Assembly (NCBI GenBank): GCA_902515155.1
Contig: CABXTT010000009.1
Span: 1-42,075, forward strand
Direction of reading: 5' to 3'
DNA: 42,075 bases
Origin: an uncultured SAR86 cluster bacterium
Lineage (GTDB): Bacteria; Pseudomonadota; Gammaproteobacteria; Magnimaribacterales; D2472
The notes under the pieces were generated by a model, which worked only from the letters and a program-made list of their open reading frames with translations, had not been told where the DNA came from and did not search any database. The position numbers and the translations under genes were made by a program. Positions 3,137 through 8,086 of this stretch are shown one piece after another (within the stretch, counting starts at the first letter, position 1; each line of letters opens with the position of its first letter).

Positions 3137-3610
3137 ATGAATATAAAATATCTACTTATAATAATTTACTCATTAGCAATTCCAGTATTTTCTTCTGGGC
3201 TAGAAAATGAAAATTCTAACTCTGGAACTATGCTACTTGTTCATAAAACTCCTACTTGTGGTTGTTGCAAGATGTGGATGGAGCATCTTGAAGAAAATGG
3301 GTTCAATCCCTACCCACAAGACCATCAAAATCTTAAAGAAATTAAGGATATGTATAACATCGATCAGAAATATCGATCATGTCATACTGCAGTGTCCTCT
3401 GATGGCTTTGTCTTTGAGGGACATATTCCGAGTAAATTTATAACTCAATTTCTTTCTGAAGATCACCCAAATGCTATAGGTTTATCGGTTCCTGGAATGC
3501 CGCTTGGCTCACCTGGAATGGATGCTGGAGATCTCTTTATGCCTTATGAAGTTCTTATTCTATATAAGGATGGGACTAGTAAGGTCTATGCAGAAGTTAA
3601 TAAAAAATAA
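3137..3610 (+). CDS. Secreted DUF411 metal-associated protein
   Basis: A 157-residue protein with an N-terminal signal-like hydrophobic stretch (residues 4-19) and then the DUF411 domain. The key motif is PTCGCCKMWMEHL with Cys41, Cys43 and Cys44, followed by a later conserved Cys in YRSCHTAV and by GHIPSKFI and VPGMPLGSPGMD. DUF411 proteins are frequent beside copper-resistance genes and are thought to bind metal in the periplasm or at the membrane; their activity is not established. Here it stands alone on the plus strand between two minus-strand genes, with its own promoter candidate, so metal specificity is inference. Confidence 0.85.
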   Translation: MNIKYLLIIIYSLAIPVFSSGLENENSNSGTMLLVHKTPTCGCCKMWMEHLEENGFNPYPQDHQNLKEIKDMYNIDQKYRSCHTAVSSDGFVFEGHIPSKFITQFLSEDHPNAIGLSVPGMPLGSPGMDAGDLFMPYEVLILYKDGTSKVYAEVNKK

Positions 3611-3633: not shown

Positions 3634-4935
3634 TTAGTTCTCAAGATAATCTTTTATCGCAAGTTTATCGGCTTTAGAGTCAGCTCGAAATGCATTAAAA
3701 AGTTTCTGTTTAAGGTTTGGCATATTACCTTTTGCCATCTGTTTAATTTGTTGATAAAACCAGGCCATAGCTCCAAAGGCATTTATTGCTTGAATAATAG
3801 TTACGGGGCTTGAGGGAGAAAGAATCCACGGGCCTAACGATAAAGTTTTTTCATAACTGGGCAATGTTTCTATCTCACCATCAATCATTTTTTTGATACA
3901 AAAAGGATCTGCACATAAAGGTCTTCCTACTCCGACAATCTGGCAAACATGACTCTCGAGTGCGTTCTCAATTCCTTGCTTACTTCTAAAACCACCAGTA
4001 ACCATTAAAGGTAAAGATACTGCTTCTCTAATATTTTTTGCATATTCAAGAAAATAAGCTTCTCGTGCAATAGTGCTTTCTTTTCTTATCTCACTTCGTT
4101 TTGGGTTGATGCTAATATTGTCGACTCCAATCAACCTAGGTTGTTCGTATGTGCCACCAGATATTTCTATAAGATCTAAGCCTGCACTCTCGACCATTTT
4201 TGCTACTTGAATACTTTCATCTGCACTAAATCCACCTTTTTGAAAATCAGCTGAATTTAACTTCATTGAGATAGGAAAATCTGATCCCACTTCTGCCCTA
4301 CACCTTTTAATAATCTCTAAATGAACTCTTGCTCTATTTTCTATACTGCCTCCCCAAGCGTCATTGCGAGTATTAATATCTGGAGATAAAAATTCAGATA
4401 AAAGATATCCATGTGCTGAATGAAGTTGAATGCCTGTAAATCCTGTTTCTCTGGCAATTTTTGCTGTAAAAACGAATCTTTCAATTAAATCTAAGATATC
4501 TTCCTCAGTCATAGGCTTTGGGATTCCATATTTTTTTCCAGGAATTTTTAACCTCACATTGGAGGGCGCTAATGGAGATGAGTTGACTTCACCTGGAGTT
4601 TGACGACCAGCATGAGAAATTTGCATCCATAATTGAGTATGATGATTAGTACCAGCAGCAGACCAAGCCTTGAGAGTTTCAAGTTGCTGTTTATAATTTC
4701 CCTCCTCGATCACAACATTTGCAGGACCTTCAACATATCGACGATCAACTTGAACATTTCCTGTAAGTGAGATTCCAATATTACCTTCTGCCCATTTTTT
4801 ATATAAATTAGCGTGGCCTTGATGGGCTAAGTTATTACCTTTGGCAATCCTTTCTGTCATTGCAGCTTTGCAAATGCGATTTTTAATAGTTTGCCCGCAA
4901 GACAAAACAAGAGGTTGGTTCATAAGATTAGACAT
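3634..4935 (-). CDS. NADH:flavin oxidoreductase, old yellow enzyme family
   Basis: An FMN-binding TIM-barrel enzyme of about 433 residues. Visible family motifs are the N-terminal AAMTER, QISHAGRQ, the active-site HSAHGYLLSEFLSP, NTRNDAWGGSIENRAR, and the C-terminal phosphate-binding GGFRS and VGVGRP. Members reduce activated C=C bonds using NAD(P)H. A hydrophobic tail of roughly 60 residues follows the barrel. I chose the ATG at 4935 because GGAG is nine bases upstream; the longer frame begins at a TTG at 4950 that overlaps this ribosome site. It converges on the DUF411 gene with 23 bases between the stops. The physiological substrate cannot be inferred. Confidence 0.85.
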   Translation of the reverse strand: MSNLMNQPLVLSCGQTIKNRICKAAMTERIAKGNNLAHQGHANLYKKWAEGNIGISLTGNVQVDRRYVEGPANVVIEEGNYKQQLETLKAWSAAGTNHHTQLWMQISHAGRQTPGEVNSSPLAPSNVRLKIPGKKYGIPKPMTEEDILDLIERFVFTAKIARETGFTGIQLHSAHGYLLSEFLSPDINTRNDAWGGSIENRARVHLEIIKRCRAEVGSDFPISMKLNSADFQKGGFSADESIQVAKMVESAGLDLIEISGGTYEQPRLIGVDNISINPKRSEIRKESTIAREAYFLEYAKNIREAVSLPLMVTGGFRSKQGIENALESHVCQIVGVGRPLCADPFCIKKMIDGEIETLPSYEKTLSLGPWILSPSSPVTIIQAINAFGAMAWFYQQIKQMAKGNMPNLKQKLFNAFRADSKADKLAIKDYLEN

Positions 4936-4973: not shown

Positions 4974-5519
4974 CTAAAGATCTTGATGAGTTTTATTATT
5001 TATTGGCGCAAGTTTTGAAACTCTACTTGATGGAGAAATATCATTTAATCTGCCAATTCCACTTAATATTCTCTTCTTCTTATATTTATTGAAAAATTCA
5101 AACAGTAAGTAAAACCAGACACCATTTATTATAGGCTCAACAAATGCATCTATGACCGCAAGATTCAAAGGTGCCCCTGTGAGCAATCTATTGCATGTCA
5201 TAGCAATAAGAATATGCCCAATCGTGTAGAAAAATGCTAATAAAAGACCAATCTGATTAACATTTATGAATGTCGAATTAGTAGATTCAATTTTATTAAC
5301 AAATATTTTTTTTAAATAAACTAATAAAAAATAAAACCAAAATCCGTTAATTATCGGTTCCACAAATGCATCAGCTGCTGCCATATCCAAAGAAGCACCA
5401 GTAATAATTCTGTTACATGTCATGGCAACAAATATATGGCCAATGGTATATATTATTGATAAATAAAGATTTTCATACTTGAAAATTTTTACATCATCAT
5501 ATTTTAAGTAGTTTTTCAC
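4974..5519 (-). CDS. Tandem DUF2061-like inner membrane protein, candidate manganese transporter (MntX-like)
   Basis: A 181-residue membrane protein made of two nearly identical halves. The unit YTIGHI..AMTCNR..TGA.L..A..DAFVEPIING.WFY.L occurs at residues 24-64 and again at 98-138, each giving two membrane helices. The halves resemble the DUF2061 domain (TG....A......E......Y pattern). His28/102, Met33/107, Cys35/109, Asn36/110, Asp50/124 and Glu54/128 are repeated in or beside the hydrophobic segments, as expected for a metal path. It diverges from mntR, and a MntR-box-like repeat overlaps its promoter. Marine bacteria are reported to use a small manganese importer, MntX; I suspect this is one but cannot verify it. 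The start is GTG at 5519, six bases after the -10 element, so the mRNA may be leaderless. Confidence 0.7.
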   Translation of the reverse strand: MKNYLKYDDVKIFKYENLYLSIIYTIGHIFVAMTCNRIITGASLDMAAADAFVEPIINGFWFYFLLVYLKKIFVNKIESTNSTFINVNQIGLLLAFFYTIGHILIAMTCNRLLTGAPLNLAVIDAFVEPIINGVWFYLLFEFFNKYKKKRILSGIGRLNDISPSSRVSKLAPINNKTHQDL

Positions 5520-5525
5520 GAAATA

Positions 5526-5554
5526 AATGTAGCAATGGCTACGGATGATGTCAA
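5526..5554 (-). promoter_or_regulatory. Sigma70 promoter of the tandem DUF2061-like gene
   Basis: On the minus strand a perfect TTGACA (5549-5554) and TACATT (5526-5531) are separated by 17 bases. The -10 element ends six bases before the GTG start at 5519, so transcription would begin at or next to the start codon. No ribosome site lies upstream of the GTG. Confidence 0.6.
5530..5541. promoter_or_regulatory. MntR-box-like operator
   Basis: The inverted repeat TAGC-AATG-GCTA lies between mntR and the divergent membrane gene. The E. coli MntR box, as I remember it, has the same core TAGC-N4-GCTA in a longer palindrome; over 22 bases (5525-5546) I count 16 matches. The site covers the -10 end and spacer of the membrane-gene promoter and lies where the mntR -35 would be. 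Manganese-loaded MntR could therefore shut off both genes. The operator role is inferred from position and core match. Confidence 0.6.
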
Positions 5555-5557
5555 GGG

Positions 5558-5563
5558 TATAAT
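5558..5563 (+). promoter_or_regulatory. mntR -10 element
   Basis: A perfect TATAAT lies 34 bases before the GTG start at 5598. The -35 region 17 bases upstream (5535-5540) is poor and sits inside the inverted repeat, which suggests a weak, autoregulated promoter. Confidence 0.45.
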
Positions 5564-5597
5564 TTATTTAAGGTTAATTTTTAAGAAAGGGAGAGAA

Positions 5598-6008
5598 GTG
5601 AAAGATAAGGTTAAAGCGCGTTCGGTACCCTTTTCACAAACTAGATCGCGTCATGCCAGTGAAACAGCTGAGGATTATGTTGAAGCTGTTATGGAATTAA
5701 TTGAAGAGCTAGGCGAATGCCGGGTACTTGACCTAGCAAGATATTTTAACGTTAGCCACGTCACTGTTTCTCGGATTGTAAAAAGGTTACATGATGAAAA
5801 GTTTTTATATACTCAACCCTACAAACCAGTAGAGCTTACTGCTAAAGGCACTAAACTCGCAAAGCGAGTTAAAGAGCGTCATGAGGTTGTTTTAGCCTTT
5901 TTAATTGCGCTTGGTGTTGATAAAACTAATGCTGAAATTGATAGTGAAGGCATTGAGCATCATGTAGGATCAAAAACACTCACTGCTATGAAGCGATTTT
6001 TAAAATAA
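5598..6008 (+). CDS. mntR: Manganese-responsive transcriptional regulator MntR (DtxR family)
   Basis: A protein of about 136 residues closely resembling E. coli MntR: ETAEDYVEAVMELIEELGE, a winged-helix DNA-binding region (VLDLARYFNVSHVTVSRIVK), and the metal-binding and dimer part ending ERHEVVLAFLIALGV and EGIEHHV. It lacks the SH3-like domain of longer DtxR proteins, as MntR does. I chose GTG at 5598, preceded by AAGGGAGAG. The longer frame from ATG at 5535 would start inside the operator and upstream of the TATAAT at 5558-5563, so it is unlikely to be translated. The regulator binds Mn(II) and represses uptake genes; the adjacent divergent membrane gene is the obvious target. Confidence 0.88.
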   Translation: MKDKVKARSVPFSQTRSRHASETAEDYVEAVMELIEELGECRVLDLARYFNVSHVTVSRIVKRLHDEKFLYTQPYKPVELTAKGTKLAKRVKERHEVVLAFLIALGVDKTNAEIDSEGIEHHVGSKTLTAMKRFLK

Positions 6009-6052: not shown

Positions 6053-8086
6053 ATGAAAATTTACTCTAAACTTTTTTTACTTACATTTTTTATACTAACG
6101 ACAAGGGCTGAAGAAAATCTAAATCTTTTTGATCCTATGGATGTATTTGAACTTGAGTGGGCTTCTGATCCGCAAGTTTCACCAGACGGTAAAAAAATAG
6201 TGTACGTTCGTAAGTCAAACGACATTATGAAAGATCGAGTTAGTTCAAGTCTTTGGCAAATAGATATTACTGGAAAAAATCATCGTCCTATAAACTCTGG
6301 TTTGAAAAATTCGTATTCTCCACGATGGTCTCCTGATAAGCAAAAACTTGCTTTTGTTTCAAATATCTCTGGATCAACGCAGATTCATATGCATTGGCTT
6401 AAAAGTGGAGAAACTGCAGTAATATCTCAATTACAAGAGTCGCCTTCAAGTTTATCTTGGTCACCGGATGGGAAATGGCTAGCATTTACTATGAACGTCA
6501 AGGCAGAGAGTGAATCAATAGCTGAAGAACGTGAAAAGCCTGACGGAGCTTCATGGGCAAAAAAACCTGTAACAGTAACGACAACACAATACCAATACGA
6601 TGGACGTGGAATTGTTGAACCATCCTACCGTCATATATTTATTGTGCCTTCTGAGGGTGGTTCTGCTCGTCAATTAACAGAAGGAAATTTTAATCATTAC
6701 GGAAGTCTTTCATGGTCTCCAGAAAGTCAAAATATTTTCTTTTCAGCTCACCGTTCCAATAATTGGGAACTTGTTAGTGATGAAGCGGATATTTATAAAT
6801 TAAATATTGCATCAAGAACACTTAAACAAATTACAAATCAATCGGGTGAAGAAAGTTCACCAATGATTTCACCGAATGGAAAAATGATTGCTTTTAATTT
6901 AAAGGAACGTCGCCCTCTTGCATATACTCCAAAAAGAATTGCTGTAATGAATGTCAGCGGAAAAAATATCCGAATTCTCACAAATGATTTGGACGGAGAT
7001 GCTGAAAATATAATTTGGTCACAAGATAATCAATCTATTCATTTTACATACGATCAAAGAGGTATTAGAAAAATTGGCAAGGTTGGCTTAAATGGCGATA
7101 TTAAAATTATTGCATCTAATATTGGTGGCACGACAATAGGAAGGCCTTATATTTCAGGAGATTATCATACCGAATCAGATACGATTGCTTTTACCCAAAG
7201 CTCTCCTGACAGACCTGCTGATATTGCAGTCGTTAACGGGGATGAATTAAAAGTTTTAACTAATCTTAATGAAGACCTGCTTGCACATAGAAAACTTGGT
7301 GAAGTTAATGAGATTGTCTATAAATCATCATTTGATGGTCAAGAAATACAAGGATGGTACATCACACCACCTGATTACGATTCTTCTAAAAAATATCCGT
7401 TAATTCTTGAAATTCATGGCGGGCCTCATCTTGCCTACGGACCTCATTTCTCTGCTGAGCTTCAAATAATGGCAGCTGCTGGATATATCGTGTTCTATGA
7501 TAACTATCGGGGGAGTAAATCTTACGGAGAAGACTTTGCTCTACTTTTGCAATACAAATATTCTAGTCCTGAAGATTTTGCTGATCATATGTCAGGAATT
7601 GATACTTTAATAAACAAAGGTCTAATCGACGAAAAGAATCTATTTATAGCTGGTGGTAGTGCAGGTGGCATTGCTACTGCATATGCCATAGGTTTAACCG
7701 ATCGTTTTAATGCAGCTGTTGCTTCTAAGCCTGTTATTAATTGGTTAAGTAAGCCTTTGACTGCTGATTCAATGGTTGGTCAGATTTATCATCAGTTCCC
7801 TGGACCTCCATGGGAGCATCTTGATCATTATTGGGAACGTTCTCCCCTCTCTTTAGTTGGCAACGTAACTACTCCTACAATGTTAATTACTGGGGTGGAT
7901 GATAGACGAACTCCAATATCTGAAACGGAACAATTTTATCAAGCTTTAAAGCTAAGGGGTGTTGATAGTGCAATGATCAGAATCCCTGATACTTCTCATG
8001 GTATAGCGAGTAGACCATCAAACCTTATAACAAAAGTTGATCATATAGTTGCATGGTTTGAAAAATATAAAAGGGAAAATAATTAA
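6053..8086 (+). CDS. Secreted S9-family (prolyl oligopeptidase-like) peptidase
   Basis: A 677-residue enzyme with an N-terminal signal peptide (residues 1-18), a beta-propeller region built of repeats such as SPDGKKIVYVR, SPRWSPDKQKLAF and LSWSPDGKWLAF (residues ~45-380), and a C-terminal alpha/beta hydrolase domain. The nucleophile is in GGSAGG (Ser536), the acid in GVDDRRTP (Asp616 or 617), and the His in DTSHGI (His649). This is the S9C acylaminoacyl/dipeptidyl-peptidase type, which cleaves short peptides, probably in the periplasm. Start ATG at 6053. It follows mntR by 44 bases but no functional link is evident. Peptide scavenging would suit a marine heterotroph. Confidence 0.88.
   Translation: MKIYSKLFLLTFFILTTRAEENLNLFDPMDVFELEWASDPQVSPDGKKIVYVRKSNDIMKDRVSSSLWQIDITGKNHRPINSGLKNSYSPRWSPDKQKLAFVSNISGSTQIHMHWLKSGETAVISQLQESPSSLSWSPDGKWLAFTMNVKAESESIAEEREKPDGASWAKKPVTVTTTQYQYDGRGIVEPSYRHIFIVPSEGGSARQLTEGNFNHYGSLSWSPESQNIFFSAHRSNNWELVSDEADIYKLNIASRTLKQITNQSGEESSPMISPNGKMIAFNLKERRPLAYTPKRIAVMNVSGKNIRILTNDLDGDAENIIWSQDNQSIHFTYDQRGIRKIGKVGLNGDIKIIASNIGGTTIGRPYISGDYHTESDTIAFTQSSPDRPADIAVVNGDELKVLTNLNEDLLAHRKLGEVNEIVYKSSFDGQEIQGWYITPPDYDSSKKYPLILEIHGGPHLAYGPHFSAELQIMAAAGYIVFYDNYRGSKSYGEDFALLLQYKYSSPEDFADHMSGIDTLINKGLIDEKNLFIAGGSAGGIATAYAIGLTDRFNAAVASKPVINWLSKPLTADSMVGQIYHQFPGPPWEHLDHYWERSPLSLVGNVTTPTMLITGVDDRRTPISETEQFYQALKLRGVDSAMIRIPDTSHGIASRPSNLITKVDHIVAWFEKYKRENN

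Follow-up and report, generated by a model that had tools for sequence, protein, structure and literature searches.

Layout of the locus

The window, meaning the whole 42,075-nucleotide stretch analysed here, lies on contig C9 of a 1.02-Mb, 41-contig assembly that is 75% complete. We call it SAR86-type, since its genus and family include genomes that share reading frames with records named SAR86: those of L007, L004 and L006 have the length and MntR score of those of L076, L071 and L079. Within it, a gene for the manganese-sensing repressor MntR and a gene for a membrane protein of the DUF2061 family diverge from an intergenic region that holds a candidate MntR operator and promoter elements facing both ways. 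The features, in window positions, are these:

4974-5519, minus strand: tandem DUF2061 membrane protein, 181 amino acids, GTG start, four predicted membrane helices (PF09834 match, AlphaFold2); candidate Mn2+ importer
5067-5246, minus strand: repeat unit 2 of that protein, residues 92-151, with His102, Cys109, Asp124, Glu128-Pro129 and Asn132
5289-5468, minus strand: repeat unit 1, residues 18-77, with His28, Cys35, Asp50, Glu54-Pro55 and Asn58
5526-5531, minus strand: TACATT, -10 element of the DUF2061 promoter, ending six bases upstream of the gene's GTG; present in 14 of 14 aligned loci
5529-5542, no strand: candidate MntR operator GTAGCAATGGCTAC, a 14-bp palindrome with core TAGC-N4-GCTA at 5530-5541
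5549-5554, minus strand: TTGACA, -35 element of the DUF2061 promoter; present in 14 of 14 aligned loci
5558-5563, plus strand: TATAAT, likely -10 element of the mntR promoter, whose -35 position falls inside the operator
5587-5593, plus strand: AAGGGAG, ribosome-binding-like, before the mntR GTG start (by eye)
5598-6008, plus strand: mntR, DtxR-family manganese-sensing repressor, 136 amino acids from GTG; NF008273, PF01325 and PF02742 over cut-off

The operator core, TAGCAATGGCTA, is the sole TAGC-N4-GCTA 12-mer in the window. The initial annotation had placed a palindrome between mntR and the divergent membrane gene, over the -10 end and spacer of a promoter, and this placement is confirmed at 5530-5541. 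The TTGACA and TACATT hexamers are separated by 17 bases on the minus strand, and the 12-base core spans two bases of the -10 element and ten of the spacer. The GTG start of the DUF2061 gene (5517-5519) follows the -10 element after six bases (5517-5531), so little or no leader is expected on its transcript. By eye, the leader spacing is similar in relatives with a single operator and longer in those with two. The listed mntR reading frame opens with an ATG at 5535, within the operator; translation likely starts instead at the GTG at 5598, which is preceded by AAGGGAG. An Rfam search returned one tRNA and no riboswitch over threshold.

The repressor itself matches the MntR equivalog model NF008273 at 160 bits (cut-off 153). 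Its EDYVE, RHE and SEGIEHH motifs supply D47, E50, H116, E138, E141 and H142 (numbered on the 157-residue reading frame), which correspond by eye to D8, E11, H77, E99, E102 and H103, the residues we take to be the manganese ligands of Bacillus subtilis MntR; all six are found.

Conservation of the operator and its association with mntR

Shuffled versions of the window contain the TAGC-N4-GCTA core 0.54 times on average, and 42 of 100 hold at least one, so a lone palindrome is not significant and the case rests on comparison. With one extra base per side, GTAGC-N4-GCTAC occurs twice in the 1.02-Mb assembly. The second site sits within a 407-codon reading frame (acyl-CoA-dehydrogenase-like, by eye), and the switch therefore looks local: the operator at DUF2061 and mntR is the only plausible target found in this incomplete genome. 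Seven other sites of this form occur across the eight SAR86-order genomes with MntR; the six examined, all but G031:C3:170067, lie in frames of at least 90 codons.

Fourteen SAR86-type loci, picked for the presence of mntR or the operator and in some cases close relatives of one another, were aligned from 60 bases before TTGACA. The fraction of the majority base is 0.98 in the operator and 1.00 in each of the -35 and -10 elements, against 0.57 elsewhere, a conservation that is partly by construction in that the anchor pattern included TTGAC and CCGTAGC. All 14 supplied loci fit the anchor and none was dropped, and the -10 element beyond its first two bases lies outside it. Conservation of the inverted repeat in related mntR/DUF2061 intergenic regions had been proposed as a check on the operator, and at 98% in these loci the repeat is indeed kept.

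In five loci (L006, L007, L061, L082 and L126) a second palindrome stands 25 bp further on. Its arms are identical throughout while its centres differ (TTAT, AAAG, TTAA, TAAT and AATT), a pattern that points to the arms being under selection. L006 carries TAGCAAAGGCTA, which corresponds to the core of the Escherichia coli MntR box. The first palindrome has one mismatch in each of L006 and L061.

Association with mntR was measured across 120 DUF2061 loci, collapsed by identical protein core and scanned within 120 bases of the start; the long stretches L247-L250 and reading frames without a recognisable motif or enough upstream DNA were omitted. TAGC-N4-GCTA is present in all 12 distinct loci with mntR nearby (ten SAR86-type and two SAR11-type) versus two of the 108 without it (Fisher p 9e-15, inflated by relatedness), and 106 of the 120 loci have neither. 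The two operator-bearing loci without mntR nearby are L060 and L043. The L043 site, TAGCTAAGGCTA, is a single case, near-identical L044 differing there by one base, and MntR over cut-off was not found in the genome of either.

Two rearranged loci indicate which gene the operator belongs to. In L003, mntR runs in the same direction as DUF2061 and opens directly past its stop codon, and the operator still precedes DUF2061; in L060, the operator precedes DUF2061 on a 4.7-kb contig that carries no mntR. Both retain the DUF2061 promoter. Because the operator is kept in these loci without a divergent mntR, we assign it to the DUF2061 gene. The TATAAT facing mntR is, by eye, intact in all of the 12 aligned loci with divergent mntR except L061, where it is altered; it carries one change each in L003 and L060, a weak point given L061. 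The computation establishes that the operator exists, that it is conserved and that it goes with mntR and DUF2061. Judged on these comparisons, MntR very probably controls the DUF2061 gene of the window, and the claim that an MntR operator governs this gene is upheld by the SAR86-type conservation, by retention in L003 and L060, and by the two SAR11-type genomes described below.

The L060 record is titled Opitutia, probably a binning error. In this locus a TonB-dependent receptor and a thioredoxin-like gene (L060:35-2692) precede the operator-bearing DUF2061 gene; the MntR of Stenotrophomonas maltophilia is reported also to control a TonB receptor module (PMC13217887).

Recurrence in SAR11-type genomes

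A sample across the phylum (398 genomes, 59 with a DUF2061 match) yielded G805, a single-contig 1.2-Mb genome in which an MntR over the NF008273 cut-off is divergent from a one-unit DUF2061 gene. The same arrangement occurs in G863 (MntR by phmmer, E 3.5e-33). Both genomes carry TTTAGCCAAGGCTAAA between the two genes, and in G805 the operator AGTTTAGCCAAGGCTAAACT ends two bases before the DUF2061 ATG. Each of the two MntR proteins is identical to that of the window at 57 of 123 positions (46%). We take the order of these genomes to be SAR11, because a protein from G865, of the same family, is nearly identical to that of L097, a record named Pelagibacterales. DUF2061 relatives occur in 84 of 197 genomes of this order. 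Among 30 loci examined there, G805 and G863 have both mntR and the operator, and the other 28 have neither in the stretch fetched.

The DUF2061 gene of G863 (L259) encodes a paralogue without Cys35 and without the helix-2 Asp50, with the operator kept. It looks, from these sequences, as if the membrane gene has been exchanged beneath a retained switch. L259 and L200/L240 represent one SAR11-type genus with alike mntR, the same operator and different DUF2061 paralogues. In further SAR11-type loci, such as L257, L260 and L278, a one-unit DUF2061 gene closely follows, by eye, a stretch reading ...NNTKYHNFFNGGEQ.RIHLVACVL..., possibly in an operon.

The DUF2061 protein

The window protein matches PF09834 (DUF2061) at 26.6 bits in hmmscan, over the cut-off of 23.1 and through its first unit alone; a six-frame genome search gave 19.9 bits, below cut-off. 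This is its only domain match at E up to 0.01. The two units had been called near-identical and offset by 74 residues; the offset stands, while the likeness amounts to 35 identical positions of 60. Among 50 tandem sequences including that of the window (alignment A3), His28/102, Asp50/124, Glu54/128, Asn58/132 and Cys35 are present in all 50 and Cys109 in 49. The residues said to recur at the same positions of both units thus hold for His, Asp, Glu, Asn and Cys and fail for Met, which is found in 33 of 50 sequences at position 33 and in 38 at position 107. Every one of the 50 tandem and 26 one-unit forms aligned keeps the His, Glu, Pro, Asn and Trp, and Asp is present in both units of all tandem forms and in 25 of the 26 one-unit forms, the alignments (A3 and A4) covering the marine type alone. 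From these alignments, His, Glu-Pro, Asn and Trp form the core of the marine type.

AlphaFold2, run on the 50 A3 tandem sequences, predicts four helices (7-39, 44-80, 87-113 and 118-159) with a mean pLDDT of 76.9 and a pTM of 0.70; residues 157-181 fall under a pLDDT of 50. Positive residues sit at both termini and in the middle linker, a distribution that by eye and by the positive-inside rule would put the Asp/Glu end of helix 2 outside. No solved structure related by sequence was found. Of the 221 matches that Foldseek returned from the PDB with E up to 10, none reached 0.001, and the best VIA-align match (Z 7.7) is below the chance level for helical bundles. MgtE (2zy9, Z 6.4), also among the VIA-align matches, is not taken as evidence. 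The D-x-x-x-E-P motif might be likened to what we take to be the D-I-M-E-P (DIME) motif of MCU, an idea only: the spacing differs, and no MCU is among the fold matches listed.

Tandem two-helix units are also a feature of the PACE/BTP multidrug pumps such as AceI, proteins of about 150 residues, and in this respect the window protein resembles them. Among 26 family members, PF05232 (PACE/BTP) found no match with E of 10 or less, in a search whose filters drop weak matches.

Distribution in the SAR86 order and other manganese importers

Relatives of the window protein occur in 58 of 101 SAR86-order genomes and MntR over cut-off in eight, seven of which have a tandem DUF2061 gene adjoining mntR. 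The exception is G039, whose contig stops at base 5884, 26 bases past the second of two operators. We searched these genomes for the Nramp and ZnuA importer families. None of the seven with both mntR and DUF2061 has an Nramp over cut-off or a ZnuA match, each single absence being weak since the eight MntR genomes are 59-88% complete. Nramp (PF01566) was not found in the window's own genome; one of the seven, G048, has a weak match below cut-off, and G039 has a distant Nramp at 64 bits. The initial proposal that the DUF2061 protein takes the place of mntH thus holds as far as incomplete genomes allow.

Across the order, Nramp exceeds cut-off in 26 of the 101 genomes (24 at 54-74 bits, two at 193) and ZnuA is found in two. 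The two 193-bit proteins, from the same-genus genomes G006 and G012, were considered as MntH and rejected: the G006 copy adjoins a mannonate dehydratase-like reading frame (by eye). No MntR match was found in either genome. The SAR86A locus L064 has two tandem DUF2061 genes (3956-4468 and 6995-7555) about 2.5 kb apart, and G050 is arranged likewise.

The wider DUF2061 family

One-unit and tandem forms were found in named SAR86, SAR11, Marinimicrobia, Methylophilaceae and other records, in a survey that kept 80 of 157 loci found and took bin names as given. PF09834 recognises each of the 26 single-unit relatives in A4 when E values up to 10 are allowed (best 1.1e-8), and the form GHI...DA..EP..NG.W is a marine subtype of DUF2061. 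Gamma-proteobacterial relatives have the form IHF...EP..NT, and a further type reads W-R...E..TK. Tandem proteins of the Vibrio type and related ones run to 129-134 residues, apart from one of 169 that depends on its chosen start, and share 52-93% identity.

Fur-like sites at p 0.05 or less precede seven of ten IHF...EP..NT tandem loci, nine of the ten being from one Vibrio-type genus, against eight of 110 other DUF2061 loci at p below 0.05, which is near chance. The boxes lie in L230-L239, the best in L231, L232, L233, L236 and L239. In a sample of the class, Fur boxes on gamma-proteobacterial DUF2061 genes are mostly absent. A Caulobacter DUF2061 relative is listed in an iron-limitation and Fur table (PMC3751524), and Shewanella SO_4740 appears in a table of a Fur/SsoR study (PMC12442407).

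Proposed function and alternatives

In the E. coli MntR/mntH system, as here, an NF008273-type MntR is paired with the TAGC-N4-GCTA core, but the controlled gene there is an Nramp, whereas here it is DUF2061, in most loci as a compact divergent pair. The window protein has no Nramp domain (PF01566), PF09834 alone matching. The MntR switch is thus of a known kind, and a DUF2061 membrane protein as its controlled gene is new. In the parts of the literature available to us that name DUF2061, none assigns transport to it, and MntR control of DUF2061 was not found among the matches listed, which cover papers outside subscription.

Repression by manganese, transport, its direction, and manganese rather than iron as the cargo are steps that we infer. 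Manganese-loaded MntR would bind the palindrome at 5529-5542, where it would block RNA polymerase at the DUF2061 promoter, the operator lying over the -10 element and spacer, and also at mntR's own promoter, the operator covering its -35 position. As cell manganese falls, MntR would be released and the four-helix tandem protein made, which would import Mn2+ in place of MntH or SitABC. Each unit would fold as a hairpin of two helices, helix 1 carrying the His and helix 2 the Asp...Glu-Pro...Asn set close to its beginning. The path would be lined by the paired units of a tandem chain or by at least two copies of a one-unit protein. On balance we favour reading the locus as a self-contained manganese-uptake switch with an MntR-repressed importer of divalent metal, probably Mn2+. 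Metal import seems rather likely as the job of the DUF2061 protein, and, if it does import metal, manganese would quite likely be the main cargo.

SAR86 and SAR11 are among the most abundant surface-ocean bacteria, and to our knowledge the manganese uptake route of SAR86 and of many SAR11 has been largely unassigned to date. Through the conserved MntR operator on a DUF2061 gene, an uncharacterised family acquires a testable metal role. The MntR-linked forms of 77 and 81 residues, should they function on their own, would be among the smallest metal transporters. More tentatively, DUF2061 proteins with the EP..N motif might form a family of divalent-metal importers built from two-helix units, controlled by MntR for manganese in SAR86 and some SAR11, where they would replace MntH and SitABC, and by Fur for iron, or for manganese in iron shortage, in Vibrio-type bacteria and Caulobacter, with one-unit forms acting as homo-oligomers and tandems arising by fusion; we regard this wider scheme as possible, somewhat short of probable.

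A different role under the same repressor has to be weighed against import. The DUF2061 protein may be MntR-repressed without being a transporter, serving as a small membrane helper in manganese shortage, for which MntS, a small E. coli protein made under manganese shortage, is a model, or as an envelope stress protein. The one-unit forms, at about 71-90 residues, have room for two helices, many DUF2061 carriers lack MntR, and PA3237, a DUF2061 protein of Pseudomonas aeruginosa, is reportedly raised under UV and H2O2 (PMC12632274). However, the seven genomes with both genes hold no Nramp over cut-off or ZnuA, the two families searched, for a helper to assist, and all 50 A3 tandem sequences keep the polar His, Asp, Glu and Asn that lie in predicted membrane helices. 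We consider such a role rather unlikely, and import the better reading.

A published marine importer offers another comparison. MntX is said to have been described by Green, Todd and Johnston (ISME J, 2013) as a small inner-membrane protein proposed for manganese import in ocean bacteria that lack the usual systems, and in Roseobacters it is regulated by Mur. It shares with the window protein its small size, inner-membrane location, habitat and proposed role, and the DUF2061 protein might be a member of this importer family of Roseobacters, Vibrios and SAR11. MntX is named as VP1164, VC_1688, ISM_02005 and SAR11G3_00277, with VP1164 and VC_1688 at 62.96% (PMC13274385), a value compatible with the 52-93% identity among the Vibrio-type tandems; VC1688 is also listed as MntX in a study where it is raised in an iurV mutant (PMC7600106). 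The passages on MntX in the accessible parts of these papers give no sequence or domain name for it.

The genomic position argues against this identity. In all three Vibrio-type loci inspected (L247, L248 and L249), rraB-like and arginine deiminase genes (by eye) come after DUF2061, and in two of the three the gene is preceded by mdh, argR, a TAXI-like (TRAP) protein, a large permease and uspA (by eye), L249 having different genes on that flank. A Vibrio taketomensis record is alike, with argR, a uspA-like reading frame, DUF2061 and arginine deiminase together, and in nine genomes of the Vibrio-type genus the arginine-deiminase locus is the sole DUF2061 match (E up to 0.001). The gene order and the V. 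taketomensis record together suggest that the genus is Vibrio. Given that mdh is VC0432 (PMC3014918), with VC0430 listed as an immunogenic protein (PMC5816637), the mdh/argR synteny would place the Vibrio DUF2061 gene at about VC0426-VC0428, far from VC1688, barring a second DUF2061 gene there that is more distant. Synteny of DUF2061 with the VC1688 region had been expected, but the Vibrio-type locus is the arginine-deiminase one; the fit of 62.96% to 85/135 was set aside for the same reason. A tblastn search of plasmids with marine DUF2061 forms gave nothing or one weak match. With the VC1688 locus in Vibrio and Mur regulation in Roseobacters both setting MntX apart, the suggested identity with MntX is unsupported, and we hold it to be improbable.

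Equally improbable, in our estimate, is a manganese exporter activated by MntR at high manganese. B. subtilis MntR activates exporter genes (PMC11275975), and VP1164 rises about 12-fold with manganese (PMC13274385), the link between VP1164 and DUF2061 being the unsupported one above. The operator, however, lies over the -10 element and spacer, a repressing position, and relatives have been placed with iron limitation and Fur in Caulobacter or have Fur-like sites in Vibrio-type loci. That the palindrome serves mntR autoregulation alone, with DUF2061 a passive neighbour, is very improbable: mntR is nearby in 12 of 14 operator-bearing loci, but the operator stands before DUF2061 in L003 and L060 with no divergent mntR, and the DUF2061 promoter hexamers are identical in 14 of 14 aligned loci.

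Other genes in the window

Near the mntR/DUF2061 module, positions 3137-3610 encode a DUF411 protein with a CGCC motif and a possible role in metal or copper handling. Positions 1572-2876 encode a GcvT-fold protein whose nearest match is DMSP demethylase, at 262 bits, well under the cut-off of 410.
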